Source: Novosphingobium barchaimii LL02 (GTDB lineage Bacteria; Pseudomonadota; Alphaproteobacteria; Sphingomonadales; Sphingomonadaceae). Taken from it: DNA of 64,000 bases. A program made the translations under genes and the position numbers. Under the pieces are notes generated by a model, which was not told where the DNA came from, did not search any database, and saw only the letters and a program-made list of their open reading frames with translations. Location: assembly GCF_001046635.1 (NCBI RefSeq), contig NZ_KQ130458.1:117145-181144 (forward strand). Direction: 5' to 3'. How positions within the stretch are numbered: the stretch's first letter is position 1; each line of letters opens with the position of its first letter. Shown here piece after piece: positions 35,385 through 43,710 of this stretch.

Positions 35385-35630
35385 GGCGAGCTTGAGGGAC
35401 GTCGGCGCCAGCTTCTCTGCCAGGGATTGCGCTACGTAAGCCGTCGCGGCCACACAAAAAGGCCGGCACAACGGCCGGCCATAGTTTTAGGAGAGGATGC
35501 CTGAAAGGCATCCTCATGCTGCACCTGCGAGCAGCCGTGCGCAATACAAATCCGCAGGCACCGTTGGTGAAGGCGGCTCCAGTGTCTATCAGGCGGCCAG
35601 CATGTCCTTCATCGTTGCGGGGTCAAGCCG
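35385..35630. other. Left non-coding part of Tn-A with two hairpins
   Basis: No gene recognised. Two dyads: ggccgg(c)/(g)gccggcc near 35461-35481, and gaggatgcc-tgaaa-ggcatcctc near 35493-35516. They probably end transcription of the minus-strand passenger gene. Confidence 0.5.
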
Positions 35631-43008: not shown

Positions 43009-43181
43009 AGCTTCCCCTTTTCATCAACGGTCGCCGGCGATCATCCAATGGCTTCACGAAAATGTGAAGAGCGTTTCGCGCGCATTGTCGTCAATCCGTT
43101 GTATAGCCTTCATCGAGCGAGGGCGAAGGACTGTGACAGCGGCCTTTCGCAAATCCTCTCGCTCAAAGGAGGTGATGTGAT

Positions 43182-43271
43182 TTGACAGCATATGAAGCAG
43201 CTCAATTGACGATCGCAGCCGTCGCGCTCGTGATTGCAATTGTGAAGCTGGGGAAGTCCGATAAGGGCTGA
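43182..43271 (+). CDS. Candidate type I (holin-like) membrane toxin, 29 aa
   Basis: A 29-codon frame starting at TTG: short hydrophilic start LTAYEAAQ, one membrane helix (LTIAAVALVIAIVKLG) and a charged tail KSDKG. This is the layout of Firmicutes 'putative holin-like toxins' (TxpA/BsrG-like; typical start MxxYEAL). The ribosome site aaaggaggtgat (43165-43176) is a 12-nt full match to the 16S anti-Shine-Dalgarno, 9 nt before TTG. Two hairpins and a minus-strand promoter-like pair follow. No start other than TTG fits the frame. Confidence 0.5.
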   Translation: MTAYEAAQLTIAAVALVIAIVKLGKSDKG

Positions 43272-43280
43272 TCCAGCGGG

Positions 43281-43306
43281 GCGGGTGGTCTGACAGGGCC
43301 GCCCGC
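43281..43306 (+). terminator. Hairpin 1 after the small toxin candidate
   Basis: Ten-pair stem gcgggtggtc / ggccgcccgc (two G-U pairs) with loop tgacag. The same loop sequence closes hairpin 2. Confidence 0.65.
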
Positions 43307-43317
43307 CCTAAAAGTTT

Positions 43318-43347
43318 GAACCCGCCGTGTGACAGCACGGCGGGTTC
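43318..43347. terminator. Hairpin 2, perfect 12-bp stem
   Basis: gaacccgccgtg / cacggcgggttc with loop tgacag. It is symmetric and lies between the toxin candidate and the minus-strand promoter-like pair, where a bidirectional terminator shared by sense and antisense RNAs would be expected. Confidence 0.75.
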
Positions 43348-43387
43348 AGGTAGGTGCGTGAAATGAATCAGCACACGAAGCATTGCC

Positions 43388-43416
43388 TATATAGCCCTTT
43401 TCCCTTGCCAATCCAA
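43388..43416 (-). promoter_or_regulatory. Putative antisense promoter facing the toxin candidate
   Basis: On the minus strand, ttggat and tatata are spaced exactly 17 bp. A transcript from here would run leftward through both hairpins into the 3' part of the toxin mRNA. The hexamers are only partial matches to the sigma-70 consensus. Confidence 0.35.
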
Positions 43417-43473: not shown

Positions 43474-43710
43474 ATGGCCGCGAACTACAACCGCCCCAAG
43501 CCCATTGATCCTATCTGGTATCGGCAAGGCTGCTATCTGCGCATCCAGTGCGCTTGCGGTCGCCGCGTCGTCGCCCCGCTGGGCGACTTCGCCCGCTCAC
43601 GCCGCATTTCTTTCGATACCCGCATATACGAACTCATCGCGCGGCTTCGGTGCAGCCAGTGCCGCCGCAAACCTTATGCGGACGTGTCGCGCAACCGCTC
43701 GGGCAATTAA
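43474..43710 (+). CDS. Small hypothetical protein with paired cysteines
   Basis: A 78-residue basic protein. CACG near residue 25 and CSQC near residue 63 could form a zinc knuckle (IQCACGRRVV ... RLRCSQCRRKP). ATG 43474 is preferred over an upstream TTG (43456). Family not recognised. Confidence 0.55.
   Translation: MAANYNRPKPIDPIWYRQGCYLRIQCACGRRVVAPLGDFARSRRISFDTRIYELIARLRCSQCRRKPYADVSRNRSGN

Follow-up and report, generated by a model that had tools for sequence, protein, structure and literature searches.

In this study, we describe a short locus in the window, that is, the whole stretch of 64,000 nucleotides from Novosphingobium barchaimii LL02 that was analysed. It probably belongs to a family of type I toxin-antitoxin systems in which a TxpA/BsrG-like toxin is combined with an RNA logic like that of pAD1 par, including a convergent antisense RNA that reaches the 5' leader of the toxin mRNA. 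The earlier note had proposed a locus of the TxpA/BsrG type; the Hol_Tox-like peptide, the selected frame and the conserved convergent site agree with this, while the RNA logic is more like that of pAD1 par. The guess was thus largely right in kind, and the surrounding family is more unusual than had been guessed.

Layout of the locus

The following features were delimited in the window.

43053-43068, plus strand: palindrome TTCACGAAAATGTGAA, candidate operator, upstream of the sense unit
43115-43164, plus strand: 5'-leader hairpin (folding and covariation)
43115-43121/43158-43164, plus strand: outer stem of the leader hairpin
43123-43133/43140-43150, plus strand: inner stem of the leader hairpin, with one mismatch
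43134-43139, plus strand: apical loop of the leader hairpin, TGACAG
43151-43157, plus strand: bulge of the leader hairpin, AAATCCT
43165-43176, plus strand: 12-nt Shine-Dalgarno, AAAGGAGGTGAT (direct reading)
43182-43271, plus strand: 29-codon toxin-like, Hol_Tox-like gene with one hydrophobic stretch, start TTG 43182-43184, stop TGA 43269-43271 (open reading frame list, Pfam, dN/dS)
43279-43308, plus strand: 3' hairpin 1, loop TGACAG at 43291-43296, 12 bp including two G-U pairs
43318-43347, plus strand: 3' hairpin 2, loop TGACAG at 43330-43335, 12 bp without mismatch
43388-43416, minus strand: antisense promoter-like site, TTGGAT 43416-43411, 17 nt, TATATA 43393-43388 (conservation)
43279-43381, minus strand: predicted antisense (antitoxin) RNA, ends approximate (from the promoter-like site and the hairpins)

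In a check made letter by letter, the TTG frame of 29 codons, the 12-nt Shine-Dalgarno, the two tandem TGACAG hairpins and the minus-strand TTGGAT-17-TATATA pair, all of which had been pointed out before, were found in place, hairpin 1 being slightly longer than first noted (43279-43308 against 43281-43306). The four copies of TGACAG reported at 43134, 43183, 43291 and 43330 are all present as well, but the copy at 43183, which is part of the start region TTGACAGC, looks incidental, because in the allele of Sphingobium sp. MI1205 the start region does not track the loop word. The copy at 43134 belongs to a third hairpin, whose loop it forms. This hairpin lies in the 5' leader and had been missed in the earlier note, so that the feature begins near 43115; its 3' end (43164) directly abuts the Shine-Dalgarno. 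A 9-nt repeat, TGTGACAGC, is found identically in the 5' hairpin (43132-43140) and in hairpin 2 (43328-43336), and the promoter-like site, which points toward the window gene, lies 117-145 nt past its stop codon. The palindrome TTCACGAAAATGTGAA has a single match in the window when up to one mismatch is allowed, similar palindromes were seen by eye at varying distance upstream of L001, L084, L109, L118 and L127, and it is possibly an operator. With folding z-scores of -8.07 for the window, -4.83 for the MI1205 allele and -7.49 for the S. cloacae allele, the structure of the locus exceeds chance.

Conservation of the frame and the leader hairpin

Comparison of plasmid alleles shows purifying selection on the frame. 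Computed over alignable codons with the start codon left out, dN/dS was 0.15, 0.15 and 0.13 among the alleles of the window, MI1205 and S. cloacae, whose peptides are LTAYEAAQLTIAAVALVIAIVKLGKSDKG, LTTYEAMQLTIAAVALVIAIVKLGQRKD and LTAYEAVQLTIAAFALVVAIVKLGQRKT, respectively, and it ranged from 0 to 0.69 across all 15 pairs examined. The leader hairpin is likewise kept, with compensatory changes, in the window, in pMI2 of Sphingobium sp. MI1205 (L001) and in pSCLO_3 of S. cloacae (L002). In a MAFFT alignment of four sequences, two of them near copies and the structure drawn from the same sequences, 95.3% of the cells pair and 10 are double-change cells, as high as in none of 500 shuffles, while the number of pairs with a double change (six) was reached by 61 of the 500. 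An alignment of 14 sequences, fitted to the structure, gave 92.6% paired cells and 48 double-change cells (0 of 500 shuffles).

Peptide and start codons

The window peptide, (L/M)TAYEAAQLTIAAVALVIAIVKLGKSDKG, has 29 residues with one hydrophobic stretch; it is small (<60 residues) and hydrophobic, within the size of type I toxins, and is predicted to be a membrane peptide. In a Pfam scan, Hol_Tox (PF16935) was its sole match, at 17.2 bits (E 0.0047) against a curated cut-off of 23.3 bits, and an NCBIfam scan gave no match at E <= 1. Among nine relatives, scanned with M typed as first residue, L062 (24.8 bits), L160 (26.7) and L133 (31.3) lie above the cut-off and six fail it, four at 15.4-21.7 bits and two (L132, L153) without a Hol_Tox match. 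Three further peptides gave 18.2 bits, 19.1 bits and no match, and when the members of the family were scanned as coded, 15 of 26 matched Hol_Tox at E <= 0.05. Judged by these scores, the group belongs with Hol_Tox through some of its relatives, and the window peptide itself fails the formal test; the candidate holin-like toxin of the note is supported as a Hol_Tox-like peptide. At L005 (about 1501-1605), in a genome of the genus, an ATG-started peptide of 34 residues beginning with MTAYEAV and scoring 20.8 bits against Hol_Tox lies directly 5' of a frame which by eye resembles a HigB-type toxin.

The start position, placed by hand from alignment and spacing, is occupied in the 27 distinct loci by TTG (9), ATA (7), ATG (4), ACG (3), ATT (2), CTG (1) and ATC (1), at 4 to 11 nt from the Shine-Dalgarno core. 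Twelve loci therefore have ATA, ACG or ATT there (L132, L147, L150-L153, L155, L157, L158, L164, L166, L167). In six of these (L147, L153, L158, L164, L166, L167) the next canonical codon comes at residue 15 or later, so that much of the helix would be lost if it were used; in L152, L155 and L157 a canonical codon stands already at residue 6 or 7, which makes a shorter product possible, and the start of L165 is ambiguous, with an in-frame TTG two codons upstream. A strong Shine-Dalgarno (txpA, yonT) and a GUG start (yonT, fst) are known brakes of type I toxins (PMC6562991, in part), and AUA, ACG and AUU, if they do serve as starts, would go further than these.

Matched loops of the 3' hairpins

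The starting set of 31 loci was hand-chosen from model, profile and DNA hits. L084, L109, L118 and L127 were dropped as near copies of L058, and L060, L061, L133 and L165, with fewer than two automatically called 3' hairpins, stayed unscored, which leaves 23 distinct loci with two such hairpins. The centre words of loops 1 and 2 were identical in 22 of these 23, compared with a mean of 2.04 and a maximum of 9 in 100,000 permutations, and the scored loci carry 15 different words; the exception is L064 (CTGGCG vs CTGACA). By eye, the loops of L133 match, those of L060 and L165 differ, and L061 has a single hairpin. Stem bases adjacent to the loops agree at only 112 of 276 positions, against 127 of 140 loop letters (some pairs being out of register), so the two hairpins are no simple duplicates of each other. 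A stricter detector, which allows no stem mismatch, found a common loop word in no more than 9 of the 31 loci, near copies included, though with a shuffle mean of 0.16%. At the chromosomal site between infB and rbfA, the eight loci scored by script bear six different words, with both loops agreeing in every locus, and in four of five multi-copy genomes (G005, G305, G185, G182) the copies carry different words, as is expected if the loops set specificity; in G313, two of three copies have the common word CTGACA. YUNR motifs, looked for by eye in the loops, were inconsistent.

The 3' loop word recurs in the 79-nt leader of its own locus in 9 of 26 loci (the window, L001, L002, L058, L062, L064, L132, L155 and L167), with a permuted mean of 1.86 and a maximum of 8 in 20,000 permutations; control stretches contained it in two (coding frame), one (beyond the hairpins) and none (far upstream) of the 26. 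Since the leader lacks the word in the other 17, a step at the leader cannot be general; in several of these 17 the Shine-Dalgarno is instead locked inside a leader hairpin.

The minus-strand promoter-like site

Past hairpin 2, 23 of 27 loci have the pattern TTGN3-N17-TA on the minus strand, and none has it with the same spacer on the plus strand, so that the convergent site seen in the window is conserved in its spacing. Other minus-strand spacers from 12 to 22 occur in 0-6 of the 27 loci, except for spacer 19 (17 loci), which we read as the same site because TATATA contains TA again two bases on. The window site itself is a poor match to the promoter consensus (7 of 12 letters by hand count) and is absent from the list given by a consensus promoter scan of the window, and single-site scores against shuffles reached p <= 0.05 in 9 of 27 loci, which is individually weak; the case for the site thus rests on its conservation. 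A promoter search on the sense strand gave no enriched spacer, with TTGN3-N17-TA in 1 of 27 loci, and no U-run terminator is present beside hairpin 2 in the window.

Two other explanations bear on these results. Short frames behind purine-rich stretches are common, with 90 frames of at least 25 codons in 7 kb, and the locus could in principle be a spurious short frame amid GC-rich hairpins, but chance of this kind is contradicted by dN/dS, covariation, matched loops and minus-strand spacing over up to 27 distinct loci and is scarcely credible. Alternatively, the matched loops might be binding sites of an RNA-binding protein, encoded by the plasmid or the host, that controls the stability or translation of the mRNA, the minus-strand site being secondary; many of the loop words have CA near the 3' end (TGACAG, TTCGCAG, TAGCAG, CTGGCA), as a protein site might, and the same loop on different stems is also compatible with protein recognition. 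Such a reading would require a co-evolving protein for each locus, given the number of words and the near-complete matching, whereas no neighbour gene is common to the loci inspected, and it leaves the conserved minus-strand spacing unexplained, so that we hold it to be quite improbable.

Proposed mechanism

Under the preferred type I reading, a plus-strand mRNA would encode the 29-residue membrane peptide of the Hol_Tox kind from a strong Shine-Dalgarno and a weak start codon, and a convergent antisense RNA starting at about 43381 on the minus strand would carry the complements of both 3' hairpins, with CUGUCA loops. Each of the three UGACAG loops in the mRNA would be a possible pairing partner for them; the antisense RNA would be fully complementary to the 3' hairpins and, at the leader hairpin, complementary at the loop only (9 nt, TGTGACAGC, in the window). 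At the leader, such pairing would impede the loading of ribosomes, and at the 3' end it would permit duplex formation and cleavage by RNase III. Once the plasmid is lost, the antisense RNA would be the first to decay, allowing the presumably toxic peptide to be made, by which the locus may contribute to plasmid maintenance.

Comparison with known systems

With reference to TxpA/RatA and BsrG/SR4 of Bacillus subtilis, the likeness lies in the short membrane peptide and in an antisense RNA, here predicted, that meets the 3' end of the toxin mRNA. The MTxYE-like start of these peptides is, we assume, also found in TxpA and BsrG. The extended Shine-Dalgarno (12 nt in the window) recalls txpA, whose ribosome-binding site has more than 11 bp of complementarity to the anti-Shine-Dalgarno, and the first contact of bsrG and SR4 is between loops (both PMC6562991, in part). 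In the portion of PMC4147584 consulted, RatA is not described as complementary to the translation start region, whereas here a third hairpin beside the ribosome-binding site has the same loop in 9 of 26 loci. The hosts differ too, for the relevant part of PMC6562991 lists txpA/bsrG-like systems from a Paenibacillus and a small number of Bacillus species, and here the hosts are Alphaproteobacteria.

In pAD1 par, RNA I and RNA II first meet through their 3' stem-loops, after which repeats block the translation start (PMC7472228, in part). The convergent RNAs (here predicted), the 3' stem-loops, the repeats, the 5' stem-loop near the Shine-Dalgarno and the plasmid location are all alike, and the predicted antisense RNA is complementary to the start region through TGTGACAGC, so the locus would work in the manner of pAD1 par and is not a member of it. 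The repeats are apical hairpin loops here and linear direct repeats in pAD1 par, and the window shows no evident bidirectional terminator common to both RNAs. The window peptide also differs from Fst/Ldr toxins in lacking an NCBIfam match and, as it contains no proline, a PXXXG motif.

Among the matches listed in a search of open-licence literature by title and start of abstract, a scope outside which most subscription papers fall, none describes a type I system of the Hol_Tox/TxpA kind from Alphaproteobacteria, sphingomonads included. Biased search methods and the difficulty of predicting small toxins have been blamed for the narrow apparent spread of type I systems (PMC12390103, in part). 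The present locus places a Hol_Tox-like system on alphaproteobacterial plasmids and at a fixed chromosomal site, the matched-loop rule offers a sequence-only means of finding further such systems, and the natural loop variants are a ready set for studying how antisense RNAs choose their partners.

Distribution on plasmids and chromosomes

Plasmids of Novosphingobium resinovorum and Sphingopyxis granuli match the window with 100% identity over the 1021 bp that surround the locus, and the related plasmid pLA2 is typed as conjugative. A blast search with the MI1205 region matched 25 of 72,556 plasmid records, all from sphingomonads; two of them hold a truncated S. macrogoltabida relic and 23 the locus, including pF1 with a damaged leader, and these bear out the proposed plasmid location and show conservation among related plasmids, the absence of which had been named as a point against the note's reading. 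At the locus, 20 of the 23 records have no listed gene, one has a hypothetical protein and two are unannotated, the PLSDB gene table being incomplete. A tblastn search of plasmids with the 29-residue peptide gave no match, which we take as an effect of the low-complexity filter because identical copies do exist on plasmids. The start of a downstream hypothetical gene (43475-43593 of the window) shows about 71-72.5% DNA identity to 12 Xanthomonas plasmid records, in stretches without listed genes.

Frame disruption in homologues had been named as a point against the toxin reading; the frames are mostly intact, with damage limited to a few copies. In pTK5 (L052), IS1247 is inserted directly before the start codon; pF1 (L003) has a junction within the leader hairpin; S. 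macrogoltabida (L051, two records) retains a 3' relic only; and L084 shows an apparent frameshift in the toxin frame, its hairpins and loops being intact. These damaged copies fit a costly gene without proving it.

Diverged chromosomal copies were also found in Sphingomonadaceae. Nine of them (L063, L133, L151, L152, L154 and L157-L160) lie between infB and rbfA according to flanks read by eye, with profiles confirming the IF-2 ends at L063 and L151 and the RbfA start at L133, while L062 and L064 adjoin an apparent folE and L061 an apparent trpS (by eye). As chromosomal relatives exist, plasmid maintenance cannot be the sole role of the family. The nine loci at a single chromosomal site in different genomes, together with the often very weak codon at the start position, would also suit a small regulatory membrane peptide that is controlled by antisense RNA and is no toxin, its chromosomal copies having a host function; we consider this unlikely, for the Hol_Tox resemblance, the plasmid spread and the damage in some plasmids fit a costly gene better, though this is unproven. 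Within the toxin reading, it can be suggested tentatively, and with some doubt, that the 6- or 7-nt loop word, which recurs on different stems, is a specificity code separating co-resident systems, that toxin output, with starts that are often AUA, ACG, AUU or CUG after a strong Shine-Dalgarno, depends on IF3 fidelity, and that the toxin at the infB-rbfA site, where many copies lie between genes of translation initiation and 30S maturation, could for that reason report ribosome or initiation status.

The spread of the family was followed with several searches. Of 94 genomes of the genus, a DNA search matched 14, including G001 through its half locus. At E <= 1e-6, model R1 matched 12 of the 397 genomes of the family (hand count, the damaged G001 copy included), and at E <= 1 it matched 173, mostly by chance; its hits L065-L082 were not accepted, L065-L069 on viewing and the remainder on score. 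Peptide profile A6 gave matches at E <= 0.01 in 24 genomes of the family out of 298; G155 and G319 were not accepted, and L156 (within a coding region) and L162 (within a 472-residue frame) were discarded. At the order level, model R2 matched 7 of 296 genomes, L134 and L136 being rejected by eye and L135 and L137 lying outside the viewing. At the class level it matched 2 of 385, namely the damaged G001 copy and L138, which was rejected by eye, and profile A7 matched none of 385, which is weak evidence of absence, A7 having no positive control genome; both class samples contain a few genomes of Sphingomonadaceae. Homologues were thus found on plasmids and chromosomes of Sphingomonadaceae, and outside that family nothing convincing appeared among the 385 class genomes with R2 or A7. 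The Hol_Tox profile placed nothing above its cut-off in 100 relatives, and the weak hits listed lie mostly inside longer frames; this search says little, because 11 of 14 control genomes also match at the loose limit used for it. One phage match of 32 nt was judged to be chance, and the single match of an IMG/VR pattern scan was a longer unrelated frame.

A pattern scan of a species-genome collection gave 47 stretches, of which 23 come from sphingomonads or, by title, from unassigned Alphaproteobacteria or Pseudomonadota and are of the same sequence type. The other 24 mostly encode MTxYE-like peptides, a type that the scan pattern itself selects, and come from Clostridia, Veillonella and Spirochaetes; some longer unrelated proteins are also among them (L107 was left out of the viewing). 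Three loci from Clostridia metagenome-assembled genomes (L087, L090, L092) have peptides of the MTSYELIWRL type and two 3' hairpins with a common loop word of 6 or 7 nt; they share with the sphingomonad loci a strong Shine-Dalgarno and an MTxYE-like start, both demanded by the pattern, and a minus-strand TTGACA-like site, and they differ in having another peptide, the one scanned being without a Hol_Tox match. With the strict detector, a common loop word was found in 3 of 17 non-sphingomonad loci, and 10 of 16 such loci have the minus-strand site. From the three clostridial loci, the matched-loop layout may also occur outside sphingomonads.

In Rfam, no family was found at the locus at gathering score; elsewhere in the window, the suhB (mmgR) small RNA was recorded at 35446-35516 on the minus strand, with a score of 42.2 bits (gathering score 41).
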